Shown: piece after piece, positions 3,391-59,531 of the stretch
How the letters are laid out: the number at the start of each line of letters is the position of its first letter
Numbering within the stretch: the stretch's first letter is position 1
DNA from: Protonemura montana
Lineage: Eukaryota; Arthropoda; Insecta; Plecoptera; Nemouridae
DNA length: 64,000 bases
NCBI GenBank assembly: GCA_947568835.1
Contig: OX387610.1
Location: 14,923,001 to 14,987,000 of the forward strand
Direction: 5' to 3'
Translations under genes and position numbers: made by a program
Notes under the pieces: generated by a model
The model's database searches: none
Told to the model about the DNA's origin: nothing
The model's input: only the letters and a program-made list of their open reading frames with translations

Positions 3391-3857
3391 ATGATATCTT
3401 ATTTAAATTGCAAACGCTTGCAATGCGCGGGGTATTTTATTATTAACAACACTATAACCGTCTCAAAAATTGATGCCCATACGGGGACTCGAACCCCGAT
3501 CTCCACCTGTCGCGGGTGTTGCTCTAACCAATTGAGCTACTTGGACCCCGAACTCCACCTGTCGCGGGTGTTGCTCTAACCAATTGAGCTACTTGGACCC
3601 CGAACTCCACCTGTCGCGGGTGTTGCTCTAACCAATTGAGCTACTTGGACCCCGATCTCCACCTGTCGCGGGTGTTGCTCTAACCAATTGAGCTACTTGG
3701 ACCCCGATCTCCACCTGTCGCGGGTGTTGCTCTAACCAATTGAGCTACTTGGACCCCGATCTCCACCTGTCGTGGGTGTTGTTCTAACCAATTGAGCTAC
3801 TTGGACCCCGATCTCCACCTGTCGTGGGTGTTGTTCTAACCAATTGAGCTACTTGGA
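3391..3857 (-). mobile_element. tRNA-derived SINE with 52-bp tandem head repeats
   Basis: Read on the minus strand, about seven copies of a 52-bp unit contain a tRNA-like 5' half (AGTAGCTCAATTGGTTAGAG, a box A match) and an anticodon-arm-like segment. Only the last unit continues into the T-arm/box B (GGGGTTCGAGTCCCCG) and the SINE tail CATCAATTTTTGAGACGG. The tail then reads through AATAAAATACCCCGCGCATT and ends in GCAAGCGTTTGCAATTTAAA. Because only the 5' half of the tRNA is repeated, these are not tandem tRNA genes. Confidence 0.8.
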
Positions 3858-4639: not shown

Positions 4640-4982
4640 TAAAATATTATTTTTATTATTAACAACACTATAATCGTCTCAAAAGTTGATGCCCAAACGG
4701 GGACTCGAACCCCGAACCCCACCTGTCGCGGGTGTTGCTCTAACCCATTGAGCTACTTGGACCCCGGTCTCCACCTGTCACGGGTGTTGCTCTAACCAAT
4801 TGAGCTACTTGGACCCCGATCTCCACCTGTCACGGGTGTTGCTCTAACCAATTGAGCTACTTGGACACCGATCTCCACCTGTTGCGGGTGTTGCTCCAAC
4901 CAATTGAGCTACTTGGACACTGGCTTTTTGAGACAATTTCAGTGTATTTGATGAGAATGACGGATCTCCAAGGAGTAGAACC
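4640..4982 (-). mobile_element. tRNA-derived SINE, four head repeats
   Basis: Same architecture as 3391-3857. A box B-containing unit lies next to the tail (4675-4720), followed by about four 52-bp 5'-half units. The far end has TGAGACAATTTCAGTGTATT and GGAGTAGAACCAAGAGG, a flank shared with the element near 22610-22670. Confidence 0.75.
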
Positions 4983-10925: not shown

Positions 10926-13923
10926 TCATGAGCGTAGGTTGTTGATGATAGGTTGTTGGAAAAGGGTAAGTGCAGCGCAGACTTGGAAAATTGTCGATGC
11001 GCTGGAACGATTCCAGTGTGAAATGCAATCGAGGATGCGATAAATTTTGACACGTTGAATTGCCCGTTCAACATGGATTCTGGCGCGTGCAATACGTAAT
11101 GTCTGTTGCACTTCCTCCGGGGTGAACTGAGATCTTCGTAAAAAGGGGGGAATGTTGAGGGTGACGCCCGGTGGCAAAATGTCAAACAGGACAAAACCCT
11201 TGTCCGCCATTACCATGTCGCCAGGAACCATATGGTTCAAGACTTGGCAATGCTTGACAAGGGCTTTATCCGACGTACTTCCTGGGTAGAGAGAACTACA
11301 ATAAGTTACAAATCCATTAGGTGCCACACCAATTAACGCTTTAAAGGTGTTGCGGGACTTGTAGTTACTATATGTAATATTTTGATGAGCCATGTTCTTT
11401 GGCTTCTCTATTAGAACCTCAGTGGCATCCAAAATTATCCGACAAGAATGAAATTTCTTAAATTCTTCGGGCAGACTAGGAATGTTTTTTTGCCGCGAAG
11501 GAACTTTCTTCATCATGTTCTTCACCAGCAACAAATGAAGAGCATCCAGTATGGTTAAAAAGATGTTGGATATTGTTCGTTCCGACTTTCCAAAGCGCAG
11601 GGCCAAGTCTTGAAGCGGAACATTTAACTTTAGTTTCATCGTTGTGATGAGGAGTTGGTCTTCGAGAGAAACGTTCGTCGCTGTCCATTCTGCCCCTTTT
11701 ATTTGAAAACGTCCCAAAAATGCCGCCATTGTTTGGAAATGTTTCGCACTGGGGAATCCTACAATGAAGGAAACAGAAAATGAAGGAAACAGAAAATGAA
11801 GGAAACAGAAAATGAAAGCTTGTTCATATCACTGTATTTATTAGGTATATAAAATGAACACGGAAGACTTTGTCATAATGTATAAAAGTAACTAGACGGT
11901 TGTAGCAGTTGTAGACTAGACACGTGTACACATGACCAGTTCTGTTCGGGAGAGAGGTTGGAGGGATGCAAGTTAAGCAACACTGAGCTGGGTCAGGTAT
12001 TGGATGGGTGATCATCATACACATGACCAGTTCTGTTCGGGAGAGAGGTTGGAGGGATGAAAGTTAGTACAGCAACTTCGCTCGCCTTGCTTATCAACCT
12101 CTCGACAGCATGGATTTGTGGAGGAATCCTGTTGTTTGCGTTGTACCGTCCTTCGGAAGGGACTTTAAGCTAGTGGTCCCCTTGGTGCTTTTCGACAGGC
12201 GTAGGCTACGTGTCGGCACCGGGTTTCCTTTCCTCCTTTCTAGGCTAGGTTAGGTTAGGCTAGATTGATCAACTACTACTTATTCACCGACGCCATTAGA
12301 CCAGTGCCGCATGGCCAGATGTCAAAACAGTCCGTCGTTAAACACCACAAATAGTAATTTTTAATAAATCACTGGTTATTATCAAATCAATAAACTATGT
12401 TTGTATTAATTGCATTATAGCATAATCACTGATTGTAAAATAACTCATGTTAAAATAAAAAAAAATAATAATTGAAATTGATTAAAAATTTTTTTTTCCT
12501 AGGTAGTAGTTCCTACAATTAACTTTGAGCGGAGTATGAGTCCTGTCCTGCAGCGTACCTTTCAGACAAGAGAGTTGATTTAAGTCTTGTATTCTTTAAA
12601 ATGCTTGTCGTTCGTGATGAATGATGAAGGGTTTCAACAACCAGGAATAAAACTGTGTGTTAAAAGCTAAGTAAAAAACGGGTGTAGCTGTATCTTATTG
12701 ATACGGCCGATATTTAAGCGGGACTACGTTCAACTACCGCGTAGCCACGTAGGTCAACTACAGTACTAACCATACTTCACATGCAAGTTTTACATCTCTC
12801 TTTATTTGGGTTGTGTTTTCATAACTAATTTACTTGCTGAAGGACTTTACAGATTGGGATAGAAGTGTCATCTTGCGATATATATATTTTATTTTGCATT
12901 AATCTAATGACGAGTGCTAAAAACGCCGCCTCCTCTCACGCCTCCAATATTTAGTTTATCGAAAATCAAATAAAAGTACTTCTAGAGAATTATCTGAACT
13001 TTTGAATGATAATAAATTGCATTCTGTCCTTTGTTTCCTGTAGGCTTGTAGGGGTTGTTACACATTTGCCATTTTGCTTAATTTAACATTGGTCTTATGG
13101 AGAGCATTAAAAACGCCAACCCCTCTCACGCCTCCAATATTTAGTTTATCGAAAATTAAAAAAAAAAGTACCTTTAGAGAATTGTCTGAACTATTGAATG
13201 ATAATAAGTCACACTCTGTACTTAGCTTCCTGTAGGCTGTAGGGCTTGTTACACATTTGCCATTTTGTAGAGAAAATCCATACATGCCTCCCTATATAAT
13301 GCACTTTAAGACGTTGTCACGTCAAAAATAACTTCAAAGTGATCAATTACACCTGCCTGTGTACATCCGGATTGCTTCATCGTTTTTATCCAAGAGTGAA
13401 AACGATATCTGACCTTGCGAACCTTCTAGGTCCACGACTCGTTTCTCGAGATGAGCATACTTCTTTGAAAGTTCAGAATATTTTTTTTGTAAAATGTCGT
13501 AGCGATCTTCCGACATTTCACGTTTTCTCTTTGCTTTTTCAGGCGATTCTAGTCTGTCAAATGTAGTCAAATTCCATGAGAAGCGGACAGGGCCAGCTGG
13601 CTTTCCATACGGAAAATGCCAGCTGCATATCCGTGTACTAGAGACCAACGTAAATTGTTCTCGTCTAAATGACAAGATGAGAAAATATTAGACACCTCAC
13701 ATATTTTGTTTTCAACAAATTGCAGGTTAGGTTCACCTAGTCAAGTTTCCACCTCCCTCGCGCTATAAACAACGCGCCGAAATTAGCTGCTGAAGAAACA
13801 AACTACTTGCCTGATAAGCTGAATCCATTTCTTCGATAGTTTCTCATCTTGGGGAAATCGGTAAAAACTATAGGACGAGTTCTTGCTTGAATTCGTGCAG
13901 TCGGGCACACAACAGAACCCCAT
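10926..13923 (-). CDS. ISL2EU THAP-domain DDE transposase
   Basis: Three exons on the minus strand: 13811-13923, 13357-13664, 10926-11758. They sum to 1254 nt, encoding 417 aa without internal stops. A THAP zinc finger (C2CH) occupies about residues 1-60 with C5, C9, C51 and H54. A lysine/glutamate-rich coiled coil follows at about 78-120. A helix-turn-helix lies at about 185-215, and the DDE nuclease has candidate catalytic D251 (ILDATE), D326 (MADKGF) and E371 (HVERAI). Frame closure requires GC donors in both introns (CAG|GCAAGT and CAG|GCAGGT). The nearby GT donors would shift the frame and break the THAP-type junction IRRxxF and the TGFPS junction. Intron 2 (11759-13356) hosts a 5S-SINE and another repeat. 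The gene looks potentially functional. Confidence 0.85.
11760..11815. repeat. Short 17-bp tandem repeat next to the transposase exon 3 acceptor
   Basis: About three copies of GAAGGAAACAGAAAATG, read on the plus strand. On the transcribed minus strand they form the pyrimidine-rich CATTTTCTGTTTCCTTC tract of the intron-2 acceptor. Confidence 0.8.
11930..12358 (+). mobile_element. 5S-derived SINE nested in transposase intron 2
   Basis: About 1.5 head units (ACATGACCAGTTCTGTTCGG at 11930 and 12021) run into a complete body and tail ending CCGTCGTTAAACACCACAAA. It is more diverged than the copy at 32.0-32.7 kb. Confidence 0.85.
12905..13312. repeat. About 190-bp tandemly duplicated dispersed repeat
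   Basis: CTCTCACGCCTCCAATATTT occurs twice, about 190 bp apart, each followed by TTTAGTTTATCGAAAAT and TTGTTACACATTTGCCATTT. A single related copy is at 30165-30320 (CATGCCTCCCTATATAATGC in both). It lies within transposase intron 2. Confidence 0.75.
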
Positions 13924-31308: not shown

Positions 31309-31998
31309 TTATATATTGTCGATCAAAACGTATACACAGGCACAACAGAAATATTATTTATAAATAAAGGTTCATGTAATTATTTTTGTTTGTAGAGGTA
31401 TATCTTCTACACGGGACAACCCCAGCGTTTGAATCTCCACGTTTCTACGACTTTAGCATGGAATGCCACAGGTGAAGGAAATGGTACAAAAAGTTTATAC
31501 TCACGAAACCTGGCGTTATAAAAGTGAACCTGTGAAGTGTGTAGACCTTTTTTTCAATTTTAAAATCTCCAATTTACCACTAATTTGAGAATCTATTGGT
31601 GGTTGTAACCTTATCTAAACCGGGAAATAATAATCGCATTTTTAACACTCGTTTTAGGTAATTAAAGTTGTTTTCGAGGAAACCGGTCGTCAATGCCTCT
31701 ATAGCTTTTTCATTGCTGACCACGTGCGTCTATTTACGCATGTTTGCTACGCACTTTCGGGTGCCGAAATTGTCGATTCATAAAATTAATTATCAGCCCA
31801 ACCATTTATCTCATGACTAGAAACTGAATTTAATGATAAGCTATAAAGGTGTGGTTTGATAATACCAATGTTCGTAGCTAATTAGCTATAGGTACTAATC
31901 TAAACAAATGTTAACTCCTGCAGGACATATTTCTTTGAGACTAAACGCTTTGCTACCTCTTATTTGAAGGTTCAATTTTACCGAAAGGTTTGGCATGT
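31309..31998. other. Intergenic, nothing recognised
   Basis: AT-rich. No feature supported. Confidence 0.5.
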
Positions 31999-32672
31999 TG
32001 GAAACACCGGTCCTCGTGAGATCACCGAAGTTAAGCAACACTGCACTGGGTCAGGTATTGGATGGGTGACCATCATACACATGACCAGTTCTGTTTGGGA
32101 GAGAGTTTGGAGGGATGGAAGTTAAGCAACACTGCGCTGAGTCAGGTATTTGATGGGTGACCATCATACACATGACCAGTTCTGTTCGGGAGAGAGGTTG
32201 GAGGGATGAAAGTGAAGCAACACTGCGCTGGGTCAGGTATTGGATGGGTGATCATCATACACATGACCAGTTCTGTTCGGGAGAGAGGTTGGAGGGATGA
32301 AAGTTAAGTAATACTGCGCTGGGTCGGGTATTGGATGGATGACCATCATACACATGACCAGTTCTGTTCGGGAGAGAGATTGGAGGGATGAAAGTTAGTA
32401 CAGCAACTTCACTCGCCATGCTTATCAACCTCTCGACAGCATGGATTTGTGGAGGAATCCTGTTGTTCGCGTTGTACCGTCCTTCGGAAAAGACGTTAAG
32501 CCGGTGGTCCCCTTGGTCTTCGACAGGAGTAGGCTACGTGCCGGCACCGGGTTTCCTCTCCTCCCTTCTAGGCTAGGTAAGGTTCATCATCACCCACTCA
32601 TTCACCGACGCCATTAGACCAGTGCCGCAGAGCACGTTGTCAAAACAGTGCGTCGTTAAATCCCAATAATCA
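31999..32672 (+). mobile_element. 5S-derived SINE, fullest copy (5S head + tandem heads + body + tail)
   Basis: This is the only copy whose first head extends upstream into 5S rRNA-like sequence: CACCGGTCCTCGTGAGATCA then CCGAAGTTAAGCAAC. Four further 91-bp heads follow to about 32395. The body (GTACAGCAACTTCACTCGCC ... CTTCGGAAAAGACGTTAAGC) and tail to 32672 (GTGCGTCGTTAAATCCCAAT) complete it. Confidence 0.9.
32003..32072 (+). promoter_or_regulatory. 5S-type internal pol III promoter
   Basis: A box A-like GTTAAGCAAC (about 32030) and a box C-like TATTGGATGGGTGACC (32056-32071) keep 5S spacing. In 5S genes this region binds TFIIIA. The 5' 45 bases of 5S rRNA are not recognisable, so this is not a 5S gene. 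Confidence 0.65.
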
Positions 32673-45060: not shown

Positions 45061-46035
45061 ACATTGAATTTTTCACAGATAATAAAACACGTGATGCGCT
45101 ATCGATCCGTGATGGTCTAAATTTTTGGCCCAGCCCTGGACAAAAAAAGGCTAACTTTTTCAAAATTTTTGTTATCATTTATTTGCGAGAAAATGAAGGG
45201 GGGGTACTCCCTTGAAATTTTCACAGATGATAGAGTACGTGATGGGCTTTCGATCTGTGATGGTCTTAATTTTTGGCCCAGCCCTGGACAAAAAAAGGCT
45301 AACTTTTTCAAAATTGTTGTTATCATTTATTTGCGAGAAAATGAAGGGGGGGTACTCCCTTGAAATTTTCTCAGATGATAGAGTACGAGATGAGCTTTTG
45401 ATCTGTGAAGGTCTCAATTTTTGGCCCAGCCCTGGACAAAAAAGGCTAACTTTTTCAAAATTGTTGTTATCATTTATTTGCGAGAAAATGAAGGGGGGGT
45501 ACTCCCTTGAAATTTTTACAGATGATAGAGTACGTGATGGGCTTTCAATCTGTGATGGTCTAAATTTTTGGCCCAGCCCTGGACAAAAAAAAAGGCTAAC
45601 TTTTTCAAAATTTTTGTTATCATTTATTTGCGAGAAAATGAAGGGGGGGTACTCCCTTGAAATTTTCACAGATGATAGAGTACGTGATGGGCTTTCGATC
45701 TGTGATGGTCTTAATTTTTGGCCCAGCCCTGGACAAAAAAAGGCTAACTTTTTCAAAATTGTTGTTATCATTTATTTGCGAGAAAATGAAGGGGGGGTAC
45801 TCCCTTAAAAATTTTCACAGATGATAGAGTACGTGATGGGCTTTCGATCTGTGATGGTCTCAATTTTTGGCCCAGCCCTGGACAAAAAAAGGCTAACTTT
45901 TTCAAAATTTTTGTTATCATTTATTTGCGAGAAAATGAAGGGGGGGTACTCCCTTGAAATTTTCACAGATGATAGAGTACGTGATAGGCTTTCGATCCGT
46001 GAAGGTCTTAATTTTTGGCCCAGCCCTGGGCAGAA
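45061..46035 (+). repeat. Left array of 148-bp units
   Basis: About 6.6 units in the orientation GGCCCAGCCCTGGACAAAAA. They end at a variant CCCTGGGCAGAAATGAAATT next to the spacer. Confidence 0.9.
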
Positions 46036-46099
46036 ATGAAATTAAGCCTACAAAACTCATAAGCGCTAGCCTTCAAAAATACGTGATGTACTGAAGGAG

Positions 46100-49000
46100 A
46101 CAGAAATTTTGAAAAAGTTAGCCTTATTTTGTCCAGGGCTGGGCCAAAAATTCAGACCATCACAGATCGAAAGCCCATCACGTACTATATCATCTGTGAA
46201 AATTTCAAGGGAGTACCCCCCCTTCATTTTCTCGCAAATAAATGATAACAAAAATTTTGAAAAAGTTAGCCTTTTTTTGTCCAGGGCTGGGCCAAAAATT
46301 AAGACCATCACAGATCGGAAGCCCATCACGTACTCTATCATCGGTGAAAATTTCAAGGGAGTACCCCCCCTTCATTTTCTCGCAAATAAATGATAACAAA
46401 AATTTAGAAAAAGTTAGCCTTTTTTTGTCCAGGGCTGGGCCAAAAATTTAGACCATCACAGATCGTAAGCCCATCACGTACTCTATCATCTGTAAAAATT
46501 TCAAGGGAGTACCCCCCCTTCATTTTCTCGCAAATAAATGATAACAACAATTTTGAAAAAGTTAGCCTTTTTTGTCCAGGGCTGGGCCAAAAATTGAGAC
46601 CATCACAGATCAAAAGCTCATCTCGTACTCTATCATCTGTGAAAATTTCAAGGGAGTACCCCCCCTTCATTTTCTCGCAAATAAATGATAACAAAAATTT
46701 TGAAAAAGTTAGCCTTTTTTTGTCCAGGGCTGGGCCAAAAATTTAGACCATCACAGATCGAAAGCCCATCACGTACTCTATCATCTGTGAAAATTTCAAG
46801 GGAGTACCCCCCCTTCATTTTCTCGCAAATAAATGATAACAAAAATTTTGTAAAAGTTAGCCTTTTTTTGTCCAGGGCTGGGCCAAAAATTGAGACCATC
46901 ACAGATCGAAAGCCCATCACGTACTCTATCATCTGTGAAAATTTCAAGGGAGTACCCCCCCTTCATTTTCTCGCAAATAAATGATAACAAAAATTTTGAA
47001 AAAGTTAGCCTTTTTTTGTCCAGGGCTGGGCCAAATATTTAGACCATCATAGATCGAAAGCCCATCACGTACTCTATCATCTGTAAAAATTTCAAGGGAG
47101 TACCCCCCCTTCATTTTCGCGCAATTAAATGATAACAAAAATTTTGAAAAAGTTAGCCTGTTTTTGTCCAGGGCTGGGCCAAAAATTTAGACCATCACAG
47201 ATCGAAAGCCCATCACGTACTCTATCATCTGTGAAAATTTCAAGGGAGTACCCCCCCTTCATTTTCTCGCAAATAAATGATAACATCAATTTTGAAAAAG
47301 TTAGCCTTTTTTGTCCAGGGCTGGGCTTAAAATTGAGACCATCACAGATCAAAAGCTTATCTTGTACTCTATCATCTGTGAAAATTTCAAGGGAGTACCC
47401 TTCCTTCATTTTCTCGCAAATAAATGATAACAAAAATTTTGAAAAAGTTAGCCTTTTTTTGTCCAGGGCTGGGCCAAAAATTAAGACCATCACAGATCGA
47501 AAGCCCATCACGTACTCTATCATCTGTGAAAATTTCAAAGGAGTACCCCCCCTTCATTTTCTCGCAAATAAATGATAACAAAAATTTTGAAAAAGTTAGC
47601 CTTTTTTTGTCCAGGGCTGGGCCAAAAATTAAGACCATCACAGATCGAAAGCCCATCACGTACTCTATCATCGGTGAAAATTTCAAGGGAGTACCCCCCC
47701 TTCATTTTCTCGCAAATAAATGATAACAAAAATTTAGAAAAAGTTAGCCTTTTTTTGTCCAGGGCTGGGCCAAAAATTTAGACCATCACAGATCGTAAGC
47801 CCATCACGTACTCTATCATCTGTGAAAATTTCAAGGGAGTACCCCCCCTTCATTTTTTAGCAAATAAATGATAACAACAATTTTGAAAAAGTTAGCTTTT
47901 TTTTGTCCAGGGCTGGGCCAAAAATTTAGACCATCACAGATCAAAAGCCCATCACGTACTCTATCATCTGTAAAAATTTCAAGGGAGTACCCCCCCTTCA
48001 TTTTCGCGCAAGTAAATGAAAACCAAATTATTTTATTGTTAGCCTGTCTCGTTCAGTACATCACGTATTTTTGAAGGCTAGCGCTTATGAGTTGTGTAGG
48101 CTTATTCTCATTTCTGCCCAGGGCTGGGCCAAAAATTTAGACCATCACAGATCGAAAGCCCATCACGTACTCTATCATCTGTGAAAATTTCAAGGGAGTA
48201 CCCCCCCTTCATTTTCTCGCAAATAAATGATAACAAAAAATTTGTAAAATAAGCCTTTTTTTGTCCAGGGCTGGGCCAAAAATTCAGACCATCACAGATC
48301 AAAAGCTCATCTCGTACTCTATCATCTGTGAAAATTTCAAGGGAGTACCCCCCCTTCATTTTCTCGCAAATAAATGATAACAAAAATTTTGAAAAAGTTA
48401 GCCTTTTTTTGTCCAGGGCTGGGCCAAAAATTAAGACCATCACAGATCGAAAGCTCATCACGTACTCTATCATCGGTGAAAATTTCAAGGGAGTACCCCC
48501 CCTTCATTTTCTCGCAAATAAATGATAACAACAATTTTGAAAAAGTTAGCCTTTTTTTTTGTCCAGGGCTGGGCCAAAAATTTAGACCATCACAGATCGA
48601 AAGCCCATCACGTACTCTATCATCTGTAAAAATTTCAAGGGAGTACCCCCCCTTCATTTTCTCGCAAATAAATGATAACAAAAATTTTGAAAAAGTTAGC
48701 CTTTTTTTTTGTCCAGGGCTGGGCCAAAAATTTAGACCATCACAGATCAAAAGCCCATCACGTACTCTATCATCTGTAAAAATTTCAAGGGAGTACCCCC
48801 CCTTCATTTTCTCGCAAATAAATGATAACAACAATTTTGAAAAAGTTAGCCTTTTTTGTCCAGGGCTGGGCCAAAAATTGAGACCATCACAGATCAAAAG
48901 CTCATCTCGTACTCTATCATCTGTGAAAATTTCAAGGGAGTACCCCCCCTTCATTTTCTCGCAAATAAATGATAACAAAAATTTTGAAAAAGTTAGCCTT

Positions 49001-49975
49001 TTTTTGTCCAGGGCTGGGCCAAAAATTGAGACCATCACAGATCGAAAGCCCATCACGTACTCTATCATCTGTGAAAATTTCAAGGGAGTACCCCCCCTTC
49101 ATTTTCTCGCAAATAAATGATAACAAAAATTTTGTAAAAGTTAGCCTTTTTTTGTCCAGGGCTGGGCCAAAAATTGAGACCATCACAGATCGAAAGCCCA
49201 TCACGTACTCTATCATCTGTGAAAATTTCAAGGGAGTACCCCCCCTTCATTTTCTCGCAAATAAATGATAACAAAAATTTTGAAAAAGTTAGCCTTTTTT
49301 TGTCCAGGGCTGGGCCAAAAATTTAGACCATCATAGATCGAAAGCCCATCACGTACTCTATCATCTGTAAAAATTTCAAGGGAGTACCCCCCCTTCATTT
49401 TCGCGCAAATAAATGATAACAAAAATTTTGAAAAAGTTAGCCTGTTTTTGTCCAGGGCTGGGCCAAAAATTTAGACCATCACAGATCGAAAGCCCATCAC
49501 GTACTCTATCATCTGTGAAAATTTCAAGGGAGTACCCCCCCTTCATTTTCTCGCAAATAAATGATAACATCAATTTTGAAAAAGTTAGCCTTTTTTGTCC
49601 AGGGCTGGGCTTAAAATTGAGACCATCACAGATCAAAAGCTTATCTTGTACTCTATCATCTGTGAAAATTTCAAGGGAGTACCCTTCCTTCATTTTCTCG
49701 CAAATAAATGATAACAAAAATTTTGAAAAAGTTAGCCTTTTTTTGTCCAGGGCTGGGCCAAAAATTAAGACCATCACAGATCGAAAGCCCATCACGTACT
49801 CTATCATCTGTGAAAATTTCAAGGGAGTACCCCCCCTTCATTTTCTCGCAAATAAATGATAACAAAAATTTTGAAAAAGTTAGCCTTTTTTTGTCCAGGG
49901 CTGGGCCAAAAATTTAGACCATCACGGATCGATAGCGCATCACGTGTTTTATTATCTGTGAAATATTCAATGTAG
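46100..49975 (-). repeat. Right arrays of 148-bp units
   Basis: About 13 units at 46100-48040 and 12.6 at 48118-49975, all opposite to the left array. The block 46550-47580 recurs almost unchanged at 48834-49864 (offset 2284 bp), including shared rare variants such as AGCTTATCTTGTACTC and TACCCTTCCTTC. Confidence 0.9.
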
Positions 49976-50796: not shown

Positions 50797-53700
50797 ATGG
50801 CACACCCCAGTATGAACCCATGCATTCCATTGCCTCTAGAACCTGATGTATTAAAAGAAGTGGTTCAAAAAGCCAAAGATTGGGCACTTATGCACGGTAA
50901 GATTGATATTAGATATTAGCAGAGATATTAGGGTTAGTAGGGAAAGATAGTAAGAAAATTATTGAAAGGGGTAGTGAATGTGGCTTAAACGTTGACTTTG
51001 TTTCAAAACTTACTGAATTTATAGCTCCAGTAGGCTTTTAGCTCTGATTTTAGCTAAATCTATCGAACAAGTTAGCTCTAGTAACTCTCAATTGCTGAGA
51101 GGTTCTTAGTGTTTGTGATACTAAAACTCCCAGTAAAGGTTATTGCTGTGACCACAGTTGGCTGTATGATTGCTCTGATGACATTACGGAGCACCAGCAA
51201 TATTTTGGAGTGCCAGCAGGCGGTGGCTGTGTCAGTAGTAGGTCTTGGAATGCCCAGTTCCAAATTTCCAGTTCCTATGCCCTAGAGTACAACAATTGAT
51301 TGCTTATTGTCACTTGAGCATCTTACGTAAAACATAATATGACGATGTTAGTAAGTTCATTTAGAAAGTTACTGGAATGGTTGGTGAATGGATGGAGTAA
51401 GATTTGTTTACTGGCCATCTACATTCTGCAAGTCTTGAATCTCCATCTTTCTAAGGATGTTTCCGACAATACCAACACATTAAATTCTATTGACCCCTAT
51501 TCTAATTTAAATCGTACAAGTCTTAGTGCTTTTATCAAAGTGTTCAATTTCAGGTGCCTGTATGAGAAACAAAACCAAATTCACATTTGATGCACTTCAA
51601 TTCGCACCATTTATCTTGGTACCCTCGTCATTTCCTCGAAAAGAATTTGAAAAGGCTGTCGAACTTCAACCCATTCTGAATGAGCTCGTACATAAAGTCG
51701 CTTATGACTATGAATTTTTATCAGAGAGTCTAAAATCGTAAGTATGCAATCAAGAGTGTTAGCTATTCTATTCCGCTAGTCTACTAGAAGTGAACACTAC
51801 AATCCATTGCTTGAACCGGGCACAACCAACACTGAATATTTCTTTTCATTTATAGAACTATTGATGTGGACCTTTTCACCGGAGAGTTATTCAAAATCTA
51901 CGAACAGGTTCACAAAGAAGGCTTCACTCAGGTTAGATACCAGATCATCTCTTCATCCCATTCTTGTCTTTATTGTCTAATGCAAACTTACACAATCTAG
52001 GATTTAAATGGAAATTATTTGTAACAATCGCTATTCAATGTTAACCTGTCGCACATTACATCTTCACTGCAAAATGGAGACTTCCTTAAAACCACCCATT
52101 GTAGCCAACTTAAATGTTATGCTAACAACCAACACGTGCAACAATGTCGCATGAGGCAGTAAAGCTTCTTACTTTACGAGTCACCCTGCCTTGCATTTTT
52201 TGTTGTTGATATTTTATAAGGGAGACCGCTGCTGAAATCATGTGTACATGTAACGTGTGTTTAGCCGCTTTCGCTAGGGCTGGTACGCTCGGACATAATG
52301 CTGGAGTCTAATTGCCCGTGTCCGTGCGAGATGGTCAACCAAACGCCGGCTTCATATTGCTGTTGGAAGCAGGTTGAGATCAATACGATAGCGTCTGGGT
52401 TTGGTTGGCTCGGTCCCAGCTCCGGAGCAATTCACAGGTCAATTCCCATGTTCCGTTGTCAATTGTCAGACGAGTTTGCTCGCAATCTTTGCCTGAGAAT
52501 ACGTTTCATTATTTCGTGGAGAATCTTGACTGTCACATTTGATAGCAGTCGTATAGTGAAACAGATTAAATAACAAAAAGATCGATTTATGTTAGCTTAA
52601 CTTTTAAAATACTAGGTCTTTACTTATCCAAATCATGTTCTTTTGTTTTTGTTTAGTTTCTTTTGTTTCTGCTTGTCTCTTAGTACGATGCAACCATTAT
52701 CTGCTTGGTTTTGTTGCATTTTTGCTTGAATGTTGTAATGTATTTGTCCTGTGCTCTTTCATTCTGCATCTCTGCTGTCTTCTTTGCTTGCTGGTGCAGC
52801 TCAAAAGCTCGGTTTTTCTATAAAACAAACCCCCCTTACATTCACCATTGAAATAACAAACTCTAACCTAACAATATCAACTACTCATTCTTTCACATTC
52901 TAAATTTCCTCTGTATTTGGGGGGAGCGAGAAGAAATAAAGTTGGCAACTTTGTGTTGACGATTGAAAACATCACTTCTTCCTGATAACGTGATTGTTTT
53001 TTACTTTAAACCCATGTCCTACTCTAGTCCAGCCAAAGTAGCTTGCAATCGTTTCACCTTTGTAATTACATTACACCAGAATATCAACAGCTTTACACGT
53101 GGGTCATTCAATGTCAAATAGGATCACCCTTGACCTTCAGATTTAAAATTTCATGAAATTTGGCAACTGAATTTTGGCACAAATATTCATTTGTATATTG
53201 TCAACATTAAATAATTTTTTTTAGGTACATTAATGAGGAGGGTTTTTTCCAGTGGCGTTTTTTGAAAATGCAGATGTAGAAAATCAGGATAACATAGCCG
53301 TCAACCAAGTGGTACATATTATTATATATTCAAGTTGAGAATTGAATTAGCTCTCAGATGAGCTCTCCTGGAACTCTGTAGCCGTCATACAAGCCTAGAT
53401 AATGTATATAATGTGACAATGATATGCACGCGGGGGTGAAAACACCCAAACTTCAACCCCCTATAACTTTTGAATCCTTCGAGTAAAAAAAAAAAAAAAA
53501 AATGCTGTTTCTCAAACCAACATTCTGAACAAGTGTGCCAAATTTCATGAAATTCCAGTTCGGTCCCGGTCAAAATTAATTTTCAAATAGAATGACCCTA
53601 GTGTGTTTAATCATATTTCCCTACACGTTACAAACATTGGACTTTGGAGATATAACTAAAACCTCGACAGCGAATGTCTGTCTCCCTCGCAATGTTGACC

Positions 53701-56700
53701 TGTTGACCTGTTGAGGCAGTTGCTACGAGTGGACGTATTTTTGAAACTGGTTTCTGTTCCAGCAGAGTTTGAGTCTTGGCCTATTACGCTCGGACTACCT
53801 GCTACATTGCTTGGCCGGCTCTCGAATAAAGCAGGTGGAAATAAACACGATCGCGTCTAGCTTTGCCGGAATTATCGTTTACCTTAGCAGTTTGCATAGG
53901 TACGGACGTGGCGCGTTGAAACGGGGACATCTTAAATACACACTTAAAAACTCGTCGATTAAAAAATGCATTGACACTGGTTCTGCACTTAAATTGCATC
54001 CTTAAACGGCACATTATTATAATATCACAGTAGATATGCTAACAGTAAATGAATATATAACTTAATAGTTTTTTAAATTATTTTTGTTTTGTTTTGAATG
54101 AGTCAGTAGTGATTTTGTGCGTGCTATACCTCCGAGGAAGTTTTGTCTGTGTTCCTTTTTTATTATTATTCTTATTCGTCCTTTGCATGTCCTTGTTCTT
54201 CGTCTGTTGGATTGGATGCAGTACTTACTAGTCAAGATTTCTATTATTTTTTTCTTCGATTCCCGCACGATTATTATTTTTTTCTTGTATTATCCTGTTA
54301 GTGCATTGAATGTCCATCATATCGTGTAGTGCATGCCAATTTTAACAAACATTATTCATGTTTTATGGTTTGCATTTTTAATTTTCAACAAAAATTCTCA
54401 TAAAATTCCTGACGATCTTAAACATACATGATACGAAAATACTTATTTAATTATTAGGTTACAAGATTCAAGAAGTTAGAATGTAGGTAAATTAAATGAT
54501 ATTTCTTTGAACGAGGTACTTAATTCTGTCTGACTGCTTTCAGGTATGTTTTGCAAGAACTTGGACATGGAGATCTTCTTGCCAACGTGAGTAACTTTCT
54601 ATTGTGTCTTTAATTATGCCAACTGTATTTTTGTCCAGTATCTCCCATTTATTTTGATTGTATTTTCAGATTCCAGAAAACAACGCTCTGAGTGGTTTGT
54701 GTGGGGGAATGATCGAAGCCTGGGGTCTCTACGGAAATCCTAAGTAAGATTGGCTTTTTCAAGTGTTAATCAATTTGTATTTCTCTGCATGTCACACTTT
54801 TCATAAAACATAAGAATTGTGAACTAAAAATTAAATGAATTTAGTAAAACTGGCTAAACACATGCTTAGTCAAGAGCTTAATTTATGAAACCATTTTATT
54901 TATTTATTTTATTTTTTTTTTTTCCACAACTTTGACATGCGTTTCATTCAGTAAAAAATGCTATCGATTTTTGCTAGATTGTATATTATTTAGTTTAGCC
55001 CTCATTTCTTTGGAGCTATTTACTAGTGGTATAACCGCTTAAATAAGAATAAATAAGAAGGTGGCTCATGACTTGGAGACTGTGACTTCTTTTTTTAGGG
55101 CCGTAATACTTTTCATCATCGAAGACGTCACTTACAACATCTGTGACCAAAGATTCCACGAGTTCGAAATCCGAAAACTTCGACCGGACATAAAAGTACT
55201 TCGTCGGACGTTGACTCAGATGGGACAGAAAGCGTCACTGCGAGAAGACAAAGCACTTATTGTGTAAGTCCTTATTACGACATCAAGTCCTTTTAATAAT
55301 TTGCTACGTTCCTCTCAAATTAAAATCAATATCAGAAGTTGATTGATTTGTGGTCATAACGACGCATTGCTTTGTCAGCTGGCCCTGCGGTCTAATGAAA
55401 GCGATATACGAGTACATGGTTATAACTTATACTTTACCAAAGTTAGAAGGGAGGAGGGGAAACCCGGTGCCGGTACGTAGCCTACTCCTGTTGAAGACCA
55501 AGGGGACCACCGGCTTAACGTCCCTTCCGAAGGACGGTACAACGTGAACAACAGGATTCCTCCACAAATCCATGCTGTCGAGAGGTTGATAAGCAAGGCG
55601 AGTGAAGTTGCTGTACTAACTTTCATCCCTCCAACCTCTCTCCCGAAAAGAACTGGTCATGTGTATGATGGTCACCCATCCAATACCTGACCCAGCACAG
55701 TGTTGCTTAACTTTCATCCCTTCAACCTCTCTCCCAAACAGAACTGGTCATGTGAACAACGCGAACAACAGGATTCCTCCACAAATCCATGCTGTCGAGA
55801 GGTTGATAAGCAAGGCGAGTGAAGTTGCTGTACTAACTTTCATCCCTCCAACCTCTCTCCCGAACAGAACTGGTCATGTGTATGATGGTCACCCATCCGA
55901 TACCTGACCCAGCGCAGTGTTGCTTAACTTTCATCCCTCCAACCTCTCTCCCGAACAGAACTGGTCATGTGTATGATGGTCACCCATCCAATACCTGACC
56001 CAGCACAGTGTTGCTTAACTTTCATCCCTTCAACCTCTCTCCCAAACAGAACTGGTCATGTGTATGATGGTCACCCATCCAATACCTGACCCAGCGCAGT
56101 GTTGCTTAACTTTCATCCCTCCAACCTCTCTCCCAAACAGAACTGGTCATGTGTATGATGGTCACCCATCCAATACCTGACCCAGCGTGGTGTTGCTTAA
56201 CGTTCATCCCCCCAACCTCTCTCCCAAACAGAACTGGTCATGTGTATGATGGTCACCCATCCAATACCTGACTCAGCGCAGTGTTGCTTAACTTTCATCC
56301 CTCCAACCTCTCTCCCAAACAGAACTGGTCATGTAGATGATGGTTACCCATCCAATACCTGACCCAGCGCTATGAACATAGGTTTTCTCACTAGAACCTG
56401 CGTTAGGAAATTAGAAATTATATTATCTGCCTGATAATTATTAATTATTCTACTGCCAATGTTATACAAACTTGCCGATCAGCTTGAAGGGTAAAGAGAG
56501 ACCCAGCGTACCTGGCCAGCTAGTCCAGCTAGTACAGCTAGTACAGCTAGTCTAGCTAGTACAGCTAGTACAGCTAGTACAGCCAGTACAGCCAGTACAG
56601 CCAGTACAGCTAGTACAGCTAGTACAGCTAGTACAGCTAGTACAGCTAGTACAGCTAGTACAGCACCGACAACTTGATCTGCTCTTGCAGCGATGGTGAG

Positions 56701-59531
56701 ACCGTTGCTGTGATCTACTTCCGAGCGGGCTACGAACCGGGTCACTACCCTTCACGACTGGAGTGGGACGCGAGGCTAACAATGGAACGCTCTACGGCAA
56801 TAAAGTGCCCTTCGATCCAGTACCACCTGGCGGGCACGAAGAAGGTGCAGCAGGCGCTGGCACGGCCAGGTGCACTCGAGCGCTTCCTGGCGCTTCCTGG
56901 CAAGGTCGACGCTGTCAAGGAGATATTCACGGGGCTCTACTCGCTCGACTTTGTGAGTTCTATTCTCGATTCAGTTTCACCACTTCTTCACCTTAGTAAT
57001 TGGGGTTTAATATTTTGTTATTATCAACACTATAATCGTCTCAAAAATTGATGCCCAAACGGGGACTCGAACCCCGATCTCCACCTGTCGCGGGTGTTTC
57101 CCTAACCAATTAAGCTACTTGGACCCCGATCTCCACCTGTCGCGGGTGTTGCTCTAACCAATTGAGCTACTTGGACCCCGATCTCCACCTGTTGCGGGTG
57201 TTGCTCTAACCAATTGAGCCACTTGGACCCCAATCTCCACCTGTCAAGGATGTTGCTCTAACCAATTGAGCTACTTGGACCCCGATCTCCACCTTTTGCG
57301 GGTGTTGCTCTAACCAATTGAGCTACTTGGACCCCAATCTCCACCTGTTGCGGGTGTTGCTCTAACCAATTGAGCTACTTGGACCCCGATCTCCACCTGT
57401 CGTGGGTGTTGCTCTAGCCAATTGAGCTACTTGGATCCCGATCTCCACCTGTCGTGGGTGTTGCTCTAGCCAATTGAGCTACTTGGACACTGACTTTTTG
57501 AAATGATTTTAGTGTATAATTGCCCCATTATTGGTGAGAAAAGCTTTCTGAACATTTAATCTCGCATCTGATATGGTTTTGAATCTGCTTTAAAATTGTC
57601 TTGTTATATAATGAAAGTTTCAACGAATAAACCAACATCATAAAGTTGTGGTTCACAGAGCAAGGCAACTTTTGATGAGGGAACAGTTTTTAGTTTCACT
57701 AAAAGCAAGGGACGTATCATATTTAAATGATGTGTACATGTCTATTAATAGATATATTTGATATACACAATATCATGTACTCTTCTTTAAACTGTCAATT
57801 GCTTTTGTGGTGAAGAAGGAAAGAGAGCAGGAGCACAACTTGCCAGAGAAGAAAATGTGTCTTTTTAAAATGGGGAATTTTACTTTTTCGGTTTGACAAT
57901 CTTACGAGTCCAAGAGTGTACCTGGTCATCAAAGACAAACATATTCTTATTTTTTTATAATTATTTATTTATTCTCATACTTAGCCTTGGTACATGTTCT
58001 TATGCAAGTTCTTAGAGTAATAGGAAAGTACATTTCTGTTAAATCATGATTGCCGGTTGTATGGTGTACGGTTAGTGTTACATTAAATTAAATTGAGTAA
58101 TACAGTGAAGTTATTCAATGAAATTAGCCAAGTTATTTGAAGTTAGCTACGTTATTTACAGGACTAGTCTTTTGGATTGTTGCGTCTTTAATTTTCCTTT
58201 AACCGGCGTCTAAATTACTTTGCGTTTTTGGGAAAAGGGGACATGACAAAAAAAATTACAAAAAATTTCAAAGAATCTTTTCTAATCCTCTCGTCCTTTG
58301 CTTTCTCGTAGGACCAGTACGGCGAAGATGCCGTCAAGCTGGCGATGAAAAGTCCGGACCGCTTTGTGCTGAAACCGCAGCGTGAAGGCGGTGGCAACAA
58401 CGTGTACGGTGAGAAGGTGAAAGAAGCGCTGGTTGAGATGGGAAACTCCAAGGAACGGACTGCGTGGATTCTCATGGAGAAGATAACTCCGCCCACTCAA
58501 CGTAGCTACATGGTACGTCCGGGGCAGGAAGATACGTTGCCCGAGCTCGTCGATCTTGTGTCAGAACTCGGGATATTTGGGGTCATCATCGGGTGAGTGC
58601 TGCGGATGACTGGAGATTAGTTTTTTTTTTATTTATGTCCTGTATTTGGCTTGAATCGGGGACGGGAATTTTTATGTTTTTCGATTCCGATTCCATGTTA
58701 CACGAAATATAAATTCGGATTCCGGAAAACTCATTAAAAAACTGTTGATTCCAGAAAACGGACAATAAAAATTTTGATTTTGATTTCAATTGTTCTATTT
58801 GGTCTCTATCAAAATACAAATTATACAAATAGCAAACTAAGGGGTGCAGCCCACAGACCACACAGACAAAGTGTTCATTTTGAAAAGAATTTTTCAGTAA
58901 AATCAAAGATTCCAAATCCAATTGACTAAAGGTAAAAATTTAGATTCAGATTCCATTTACCAGAAAATAAAGATTTCTATTCCGCTTCCTGGCTTAAATA
59001 CAAGAAATACAAGTCATGAATCTTGATAGAGGTTGTCAGGTGAGACAAATGAATATAAAAGTGAGATGCCCTGACCTCACCGTTCTTCAGTGAGGTTTTG
59101 TCAGAAGAACAGTGGATGCTGAGATTAGGTCACAATGAGAAGATGTAGGAGATTCTTCTGAACATTGAATTTCATATCATTTTGCAACTTCACAGCGACC
59201 TCATTCCAGACCTCGTAACCTAATAAAATAAATAGCAAAAAAAACATCCATTTTAGATTAAATGTGATTTAAAATGCAAACGCTTGCAACGCGCGGGGTA
59301 TTTTACTATTATGAACACTATAACCGTCTCAAATACTCAAAGTTACTCAACATTTTTGGAGACAGTCATAATAATAAAATCGTTCCGTTTCTTATGTTTT
59401 TCAGTGACGCCAACTCGATAGTGTCGAATCGTCAAGTTGGTCACATGCTCCGCACTAAACTGAGCACCGCCGACGAAGGGGGAGTTGCCGCTGGCTCGGG
59501 AGCTTTGGACAGCCCTTACCTGATCGACTGA
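50797..59531 (+). CDS. Gss: Glutathione synthetase (ATP-dependent, eukaryotic GS family)
   Basis: Cytosolic enzyme joining glycine to gamma-glutamylcysteine, the last step of glutathione synthesis. Exons: 50797-50896, 51554-51737, 51856-51931, exon 4 (52265-52437 or 53766-53899), 54544-54586, 54670-54743, 55099-55263, 56691-56952, 58312-58592, 59405-59531. All junctions are GT-AG and phases close, giving 481 aa with exon 4b or 494 aa with 4a (human enzyme 474). In 4b numbering, hallmarks are LLRSDY (R128, substrate), EIN (E145, N147, Mg), GTKKVQQ (309-310, ATP), the glycine-rich loop [10 protein letters not shown] (K367, E371), GHMLRTK (R456) and EGGVAAG. The start gives a 33-codon first exon with an insect-like AKDWALMHG segment. 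Introns 7-9 contain SINEs. The gene appears functional. Confidence 0.95.
52265..52437 (+). CDS. Gss: Gss exon 4a (alternative, with Cys-rich insert)
   Basis: Begins phase 0 after TTTAG and ends with AG of a split Arg codon before GTCAAT, the same phases as 4b. It encodes 57 full codons from [11 protein letters not shown] to [14 protein letters not shown] and AIH. Compared with 4b it has a 13-residue longer middle part with five cysteines (NCPCPCEM ... YCCWKQ). It keeps the substrate Arg and the EIN metal ligands. Confidence 0.8.
53101..53598. mobile_element. Short non-autonomous relative of the 41-kb palindromic element, in the Gss intron between 4a and 4b
   Basis: The ends GGGTCATTCAATGTCAAATA and its complement (AATAGAATGACCC) match the 41-kb element. 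The interior has only arm-derived sequence (TTTTTCCAGTGGCGTTTTTT, TCTCCTGGAACTCTGTAGC). The coding centre is deleted. Flanking tetramers (ACGT/TAGT) do not match. Confidence 0.8.
53766..53899 (+). CDS. Gss: Gss exon 4b (alternative)
   Basis: Begins phase 0 after CAGCAG and ends with AG of a split Arg codon before GTACGG. It encodes [13 protein letters not shown] ... [15 protein letters not shown] ... SLH. Its length is closer to the vertebrate enzyme than 4a. Including both exon 4 copies, or neither, shifts the frame. Confidence 0.8.
55370..56372 (-). mobile_element. 5S-SINE with about seven inverted heads in Gss intron 7
   Basis: Core (GTGCCGGTACGTAGCC, CTTAACGTCCCTTCCGAAGG) and body to about 55612, then 91-bp heads to 56372. 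A second partial body (AACAACAGGATTCCTCCACA ... GAAGTTGCTGTAC) is inserted at 55755-55830 after the second head, so a head-body junction was itself duplicated. Confidence 0.85.
56515..56664. repeat. 9-bp minisatellite next to the Gss exon 8 acceptor
   Basis: About 16 copies of CTAGTACAG with CCAGTACAG and TCTAG variants. They end about 26 bp before the exon 8 acceptor TTGCAG at 56690. Confidence 0.9.
57003..57505 (-). mobile_element. tRNA-SINE with about eight 52-bp head repeats in Gss intron 8
   Basis: Starts with the tail end ACACTATAATCGTCTCAAAA and one box B-bearing unit (GGGGACTCGAACCCCG). Head-half units (GAGCTACTTGGACCCCGATC) follow to about 57490, then GACTTTTTGAAATGATTTTA. Orientation is opposite to Gss. 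Confidence 0.85.
57506..58311. other. Gss: Remainder of Gss intron 8
   Basis: AT-rich. No repeat shared with the window. It ends in the pyrimidine-rich acceptor CTTTGCTTTCTCGTAG. Confidence 0.6.
58593..59404. other. Gss: Gss intron 9 with a tRNA-SINE tail fragment
   Basis: 59268-59335 carries GCAAACGCTTGCAACGCGCG and GAACACTATAACCGTCTCAA, a headless tRNA-SINE tail. The rest contains repeated GATTCC-type motifs but no defined element. Confidence 0.65.

Follow-up and report, generated by a model that had tools for sequence, protein, structure and literature searches.

In soybean, homoglutathione synthetase is encoded by a separate gene. This enzyme (3kaj) belongs to the same family as the glutathione synthetase (GSS) described here and has a changed substrate choice; the available sections of PMC5919673 trace the terminal amino acid that it selects to two replaced alanines, which lie in another loop, outside the part of the protein (exon 4) that concerns us. 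The glutathione-synthetase-like genes of cyst nematodes are also from this family, and their dipeptide pocket is diversified in the residues holding the cysteine and the gamma-glutamyl group in place, as it is here (PMC5919673, same sections). But the nematodes have many whole-gene copies, which encode secreted proteins, and the tested Clade 3 proteins lack the canonical activity, whereas here a single exon in a single gene is concerned, and most of the pocket residues are kept. In Gpa-GSS22 and Gpa-GSS30, all six positions of the gamma-glutamyl pocket are substituted (PMC5919673, same sections). This is not the case here: Asn216, Gln220, Arg267, and Tyr270 (human numbering, as throughout) are kept.

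The alternative oxidase of the oyster Crassostrea virginica is, like GSS, a stress-linked redox enzyme with a tandem-duplicated exon (exon 10). In the available text of PMC5589949, the second copy is conserved across taxa and the first has novel mutations near key functional sites. This parallels our gene, in which the second copy (4b) resembles the rest of the family and the first (4a) is unusual. However, the oyster exon undergoes alternative 3' splicing, its expression was measured, and the novel form is dominant under air exposure (PMC5589949), while exon 4 of GSS is internal and its two versions are predicted from DNA. Similarly, human ketohexokinase (KHK) and FYN have tandem duplicated exons at or beside the ATP site, as GSS does here, and the catalytic arginine is kept in both KHK isoforms (PMC9741552, in the part available). 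These proteins differ from GSS in their folds and substrates, and their isoforms are known.

The whole stretch of DNA that we analysed (the window; 64,000 nt), from a crustacean- or insect-like animal, contains a complete GSS gene on the plus strand, which we modelled as ten exons with two versions of exon 4. Exon 1 (50797..50896) has the ATG start and ends in phase 1. It is followed by exon 2 (51554..51737), exon 3 (51856..51931, which ends in phase 0), and the alternative exons 4a (52265..52437) and 4b (53766..53899). The remaining exons are exon 5 (54544..54586, which starts in phase 2), exon 6 (54670..54743), exon 7 (55099..55263, common to both isoforms), exon 8 (56691..56952, with Arg267 and Tyr270), exon 9 (58312..58592, with the glycine-rich loop), and exon 10 (59405..59531, with a TGA stop). 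Besides the gene model, exons 2, 4a, 4b, 7, 8, and 9 are supported by profile matches, and 4a and 4b by comparison with each other.

Both isoforms match the solved human glutathione synthetase (2hgs) over nearly its whole length (395 bits with 4b and 384 bits with 4a), and both score above the cut-offs for Pfam PF03917 and PF03199. Human residues 125, 127, 144, 146, 305, 364, 368, 450, and 452 (the catalytic arginine, Mg ligands, and ATP lysines) are kept in both isoforms. (The ligand roles of these nine residues follow PMC2845819 in part.) Judging by the whole-length match, we assign the gene to the glutathione synthetases of the eukaryotic type.

As a background for conservation, we used 44 glutathione synthetases, which are not independent: 43 of the 44 exon-4 segments are distinct, and some are nearly alike. 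Three are eukaryotic and 41 are loci in prokaryote genomes (from 90 stretches), which were used solely for this purpose. All 41 loci match the search pattern for human residues 361-368, so the conservation of Lys364 and Glu368 in the background is by construction; the pattern for residues 141-149 is matched by 3/41. None of the 76 stretches from viral contigs encoded a relative, and with 4a as the query, one stretch scored as a relative and no locus was returned. Neither the prokaryote nor the viral set yielded an animal relative.

The initial annotation had proposed that 4a and 4b are homologous and apparently mutually exclusive, with both running from phase 0 to phase 2. The coordinates, phases, and GT-AG dinucleotides were confirmed on the sequence. 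Exon 4a is 173 nt long and 4b is 134 nt, each 2 mod 3, and as had been claimed, either exon alone restores the frame, giving a coding sequence of 1485 nt (494 amino acids) with 4a or 1446 nt (481 amino acids) with 4b. If both exons are included, there is a stop at codon 180, and if neither is included, at codon 159, so the two are predicted from frame arithmetic to be mutually exclusive in working products. The acceptor of 4a is weak: approximate matrices score it at 0.2 bits, which places it 47th among the 107 AGs in the region. That of 4b is stronger. Weak acceptors are frequent in regulated exons. A stronger acceptor for 4a, with the exon starting at 52278, was rejected because it is out of frame. 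The acceptor of 4b is a tandem CAGCAG, with a second acceptor that would start the exon at 53763, so a 482-amino-acid isoform with one extra Gln is also possible.

The pair has the attributes of tandem-duplicated exons: 4a and 4b are neighbouring internal exons with homology, the same phases, GT-AG boundaries, and no stop. As given in the available portion of PMC5740500, incompatible frames are common in validated mutually exclusive clusters (20/28 human genes compared with Drosophila), and the prediction rule for such exons allows a length difference of up to 60 nt; 4a and 4b differ by 39 nt. The intron between them contains a 510-bp element (53095..53604, plus strand) with inverted repeats and many matches in the same genome. 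Competing intron pairing as the exon selector was rejected, as these long inverted repeats are a dispersed element, and we found no convincing paired intron sequences at the locus that could govern the choice between 4a and 4b. The surroundings of the gene are repeat-rich.

Exons 4a and 4b align with a score of 67, far above the maximum of 11 among 2000 shuffles, so their homology is beyond chance. We also built a profile of the exon-4 segment from the 44 other glutathione synthetases, omitting 4a and 4b, and searched the whole window in six frames. It recovered 4b (E 5.5e-15, 52 bits) and 4a (E 7.1e-8, 29 bits); the next match had E 0.31. The two copies have different codons at 12 of the 22 amino acids that they have in common. 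Synonymous change is saturated (pS 0.785) and pN is 0.389, for a pN/pS of 0.50 (bootstrap 0.34-0.70; below 1 in 2000/2000 bootstraps). This agrees with the earlier claim that the copies differ by substitution and not by decay. Because synonymous sites are saturated and amino-acid change is restrained, the duplication appears to be old, with both copies long under selection. When we simulated a copy that evolved free of constraint to 0.75 substitutions per site, just 3 of 4000 runs remained open with at least 22 of the 44 residues.

We then compared the active-site residues. Exon 4 carries Arg125, Asp127, Glu144, and Asn146, which, like His163, are identical in 4a, in 4b, and in 44/44 background sequences. 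Because the catalytic residues are kept in both copies, the isoforms would share them and differ around them. The suggestion that the isoforms differ at the active site is supported, as a prediction, for these surroundings (position 128, the 150s, and the beta5-beta6 turn); the Arg and the Mg ligands themselves are common to both. At human Tyr128, 4a has an Ile codon (52295..52297, plus strand) where all 44 others have Tyr or Phe. At human Ser151, it has a Gly codon (52397..52399, plus strand), as do just 2 of the 44 others; Ser151 contacts the gamma-glutamyl group in the human and trypanosome enzymes (PMC2845819, available part). The aromatic residue and Ser151 are lost in 4a only, not in 4b. 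Between these positions, the turn in 4a (52304..52366, plus strand) has 21 residues, including five cysteines, compared with 10 residues in human and 8 in 4b. The length of this turn varies from 6 to 24 residues in the family, and it is longer than 4a's in 9/44.

Exon 7 affects both isoforms: Gln211 is replaced by Glu and Glu214 by Thr, and each position is invariant in the 44 compared sequences. The gamma-glutamyl pocket therefore departs from the canonical one at 211 and 214 in both isoforms and also at 151 in 4a. We do not judge family membership by this pocket but by the match along the whole length.

No third copy of exon 4 was found in the window, either by tblastn of the exon or with the exon-4 profile in six frames. 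When each exon was searched against the window by tblastn, the matches other than self-matches and those between 4a and 4b were all weak, the best being 33 residues of exon 9 (14024-13926, minus strand, E 0.009). Profiles of exons 2, 6, 7, 8, and 9 had no other match in the window below E 0.12, and exon 6 itself reached just E 0.26. Across the 258-Mb genome, three partial-protein searches gave 5, 3, and 2 matches, all in the present gene, so there is no sign of a second GSS locus at this sensitivity. A diverged paralogue could be missed because these searches were lossy: the 4b-based query missed 4a, and the 4a-based query missed 4b.

We think it likely that an ancient tandem duplication gave rise to the two copies of exon 4 and that both are spliced in as mutually exclusive alternatives. 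Exon 4 encodes the hairpin of beta5 and beta6 together with the beta6-alpha7 loop, which form the nucleotide floor and the seat of gamma-glutamylcysteine. Transcripts with both or neither copy would be lost via early stop codons. The stronger acceptor and family-like sequence of 4b suggest that it is the general (housekeeping) form, and the weak acceptor of 4a suggests a variant regulated by tissue, stage, or stress. The 4a pocket is predicted to be altered near the gamma-glutamyl group, with a cysteine cluster in the turn. It is also conceivable, but doubtful, that the single gene yields two glutathione synthetases that differ in substrate or redox behaviour. In the enzyme common to both, the pocket acid would have moved from 214 to 211, and 4a, by dropping Ser151 and adding a CPCPC...CC turn beside the ATP floor, would give a form that senses thiols or metals, or that takes another gamma-glutamyl substrate, and that splicing switches on under stress.

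A somewhat unlikely alternative is that 4a is a relict, a formerly working alternative exon whose use was recently lost, with 4b alone now spliced in. The weak acceptor, the substitutions at 128 and 151 (both conserved), and the longer turn are consistent with this. The weak acceptor and these substitutions, together with the lower score of 4a on the family profile (29 vs. 52 bits), count against our main reading. Of simulated neutral copies, 49% at 0.2 and 32% at 0.3 substitutions per site still resembled 4a, so a recent neutral phase of that length, and with it a recent loss, is possible. But 4a has no stop in 57 codons, its frame and splice dinucleotides are intact, it keeps five strictly invariant residues, and its longer turn lies where the family varies in length. 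The weak acceptor would also suit a poison exon, whose inclusion with 4b leads to decay (both together stop early) and tunes the level of GSS. We consider it quite improbable that this is the main role of 4a, which alone yields a full-length frame: a poison exon has no need of a kept frame and catalytic residues, yet 4a has both, with saturated synonymous change. Finally, the repeat-rich surroundings might raise the concern of an assembly error, but the DNA of 4a and 4b is too diverged for one exon assembled twice. Chance similarity is contradicted by a match far beyond shuffles that an independent profile also recovered, so we give almost no credence to either.

Mutually exclusive duplicated exons are already known as a class, to which GSS is predicted to add a new case, and a prior description is possible. 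We take the Drosophila glutathione synthetase gene symbols to be CG32495 or CG6835. The initial annotation knew of no such isoforms for this enzyme, and in keeping with this, our search of the open-access literature found no report of an alternative exon 4 in GSS. The one paper that mentions both glutathione synthetase and a duplicated exon does so for different genes. Neither glutathione nor synthetase appears in the exon-duplication paper PMC3303723, and glutathione is absent from the available parts of PMC9741552 and PMC5740500.

Glutathione synthetase is a housekeeping enzyme, and variation of its dipeptide pocket is described for the whole-gene copies of cyst nematodes (PMC5919673, available sections). 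If our reading is correct, a swap of the active-site floor at the level of splicing would change how or when glutathione is made, without a second gene. It would also be a natural experiment, with two floors on an otherwise identical enzyme, suited to side-by-side kinetics.

The window contains a complete glutathione synthetase (GSS) gene on the plus strand (50797-59531), with ten coding exon positions, consistent phases, and GT-AG boundaries at all introns. The fourth position is filled twice on this strand, by exon 4a (52265-52437, 173 nt) and exon 4b (53766-53899, 134 nt), both running from phase 0 to phase 2. Using 4a alone gives an open frame of 1485 nt (494 amino acids), and using 4b alone gives one of 1446 nt (481 amino acids). 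If both are included, a stop is reached at codon 180, and if both are skipped, at codon 159. The gene model thus confirms what the initial annotation reported about the paired exon: its coordinates and phases, the two total lengths, and the rule that either copy alone restores the frame. (A tandem CAGCAG acceptor at 53763-53766 provides an extra site three bases upstream of 4b, so one added glutamine is possible.)

The surroundings of the gene are rich in repeats. Directly upstream are 148-bp satellite arrays in three blocks (45064-49970), the first of which is inverted. Within the gene, a 9-bp CAGCTAGTA repeat (56517-56664) ends 26 bases upstream of exon 8, and intron 8 holds, at 57052-57488, a tRNA-Ser(CGA)-like gene on the minus strand and, overlapping it, eight tandem copies of a 52-bp repeat. 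Similar tRNA genes are at 3474-3546 and 4690-4762. The window also has a DDE_Tnp_4 transposase open reading frame (10926-11825, minus strand) and a 5S rRNA match (31980-32100, plus strand).

The homology of 4a and 4b, as initially proposed, goes beyond chance by two lines of evidence. The peptide alignment scores 67, and the highest of 2,000 shuffles scores 11. Also, an exon-4 profile built from 44 background sequences (human, potato, soybean, and 41 bacterial loci), with 4a and 4b excluded, found 4b (E = 5.5e-15) and 4a (E = 7.1e-8) in the six frames of the window. It found no third copy there (the next match had E = 0.31). Similar profiles gave no second copy of exons 2, 6, 7, 8, or 9 (no further match below E = 0.12), with the caveat that the exon 6 profile recovers its own exon only at E = 0.26. 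We searched the 258-Mb genome three times with partial protein queries and found no second glutathione synthetase locus, but these searches are lossy: the 4b query missed 4a and the 4a query missed 4b. The genome also includes a 15,885-base contig whose reading frames, under the invertebrate mitochondrial code, look on inspection like nad2, cox1, cox2, atp6, cox3, nad1, cob, and others. Between its cox1 and cox2 is a tRNA match whose anticodon loop reads by eye as Leu(UUR). This gene order is typical of crustaceans and insects and supports an arthropod source.

Exon 4 aligns to about residues 117-164 of the human enzyme (whose numbering we use). In the Trypanosoma brucei enzyme, the beta5 and beta6 strands are described as the floor of the nucleotide pocket, with glutathione above the beta6-alpha7 loop (PMC2845819), and from the residues named there, exon 4 appears to encode this beta5-beta6 hairpin. 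According to the same source, Arg125 and Ser149 contact the cysteine, Ser151 contacts the gamma-glutamyl group, and, by its offsets, Asp127 and Glu144 are the counterparts of Asp130 and Glu146 at the magnesium site of the yeast enzyme. Arg125, Asp127, Glu144, Asn146, and His163 are the same in all 44 background sequences, 4a, and 4b. Both copies therefore carry the substrate-binding arginine and the magnesium-binding Glu and Asn that were initially assigned to this segment. At position 128, all 44 background sequences have Tyr or Phe, 4b has Tyr, and 4a has Ile; position 151 (37 Ser, 5 Ala, and 2 Gly in the background) is Ser in 4b and Gly in 4a. Both copies have Ala at 149, as do 12 of the 44. 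In the potato enzyme, the backbone of two serines is described as holding the cysteine (PMC5919673), so these serines' side chains may be partly dispensable.

The beta5-beta6 turn has 21 residues in 4a, 8 in 4b, and 10 in human. Background turns range from 6 to 24 residues (median 11), and nine of the 44 exceed 4a's. The extra length of 4a thus falls at a site where this family accepts longer segments. The 4a turn has five cysteines; just 3 of the 44 background sequences contain one at all, for a total of 3 cysteines across 583 residues. Overall, 4a retains the catalytic set and stands out in its cysteines and at two positions that are otherwise conserved.

Other changes are common to both isoforms because they are encoded in the shared exon 7 (55099-55263), where human Glu214 is replaced by Thr and human Gln211 by Glu. 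The two human residues are invariant in all 44 background sequences, of which only 3 are eukaryotic. Glu214 is described as a gamma-glutamyl contact (PMC2845819). The gamma-glutamyl pocket (R, E, two Q, N, and Y) is described as conserved across three kingdoms (PMC5919673), and we infer that Gln211 is one of its two glutamines. The acid of this pocket seems to have been displaced by three residues, from 214 to 211. Among the 61 columns with identity in at least 42 of 44 sequences, the 4b isoform deviates at five (155, 211, 214, 227, and 448), and the 4a isoform deviates at these except for 155. (Position 155 is Leu in 42/44 background sequences and Ile in 4b.)

The main rival explanation is that 4a is a recent relict, and we consider this unlikely. 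Simulated unconstrained copies often look intact at low divergence, so a recent loss of 4a could escape notice: at 0.2 substitutions per site, 49% keep an open frame and 22 or more of the 44 residues, and at 0.3, 32% do. At 0.75 substitutions per site, 3 of 4,000 runs ended in this state. Across the 44 aligned codons, 4a and 4b have 22 amino acids in common, 12 of which are encoded differently. Synonymous differences are saturated (pS = 0.785) and the nonsynonymous difference is 0.389. The comparison of synonymous and nonsynonymous change that was initially proposed gave pN/pS = 0.50 (bootstrap 0.34-0.70), and none of 2,000 replicates reached 1. The flanking introns have no clear similarity; when the two halves were compared, the sole match with E under 0.2 fell inside the exons. 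The saturated pS, the pN/pS below 1, and the simulations together indicate that both copies have been under protein-level selection through most of a long history.

How might one copy be chosen? By approximate matrices, 4b scores 8.3 at its acceptor and 7.4 at its donor, and 4a scores 5.1 at its donor and 0.2 at its acceptor (47th among the region's 107 AGs). The copies are 1328 nt apart, a distance too great for steric exclusion. The reading frame itself is the safeguard of mutual exclusivity that is demonstrated here. In a comparison with Drosophila, incompatible frames are described for 20 of 28 (71%) human genes with validated clusters (PMC5740500). We found no convincing case of intron base pairing for splice choice. 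We also rejected an inverted repeat between 4a and 4b as a selector: this 510-bp stretch (53095-53604) belongs to a dispersed element. Scoring 40 of 532 candidates gave at least 64 matches, its own copy included, and the long matches elsewhere in the genome are 87-89% identical across most of the element.

Mutually exclusive tandem-duplicated exons are already a known kind of arrangement, and our searches of open-access papers gave no report of such a pair in glutathione synthetase. In ketohexokinase, the duplicated exons are described as adjoining the ATP site (PMC9741552). The nearest case by design is the alternative oxidase of oyster, where one exon is duplicated and its first copy is described as having novel mutations near functional sites and as becoming dominant on air exposure (PMC5589949). 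As a prediction, the initial interpretation of 4a and 4b as mutually exclusive is supported. The best explanation for the paired exons is probably mutually exclusive splicing, in which 4b would be the general form of the enzyme and 4a a regulated form.
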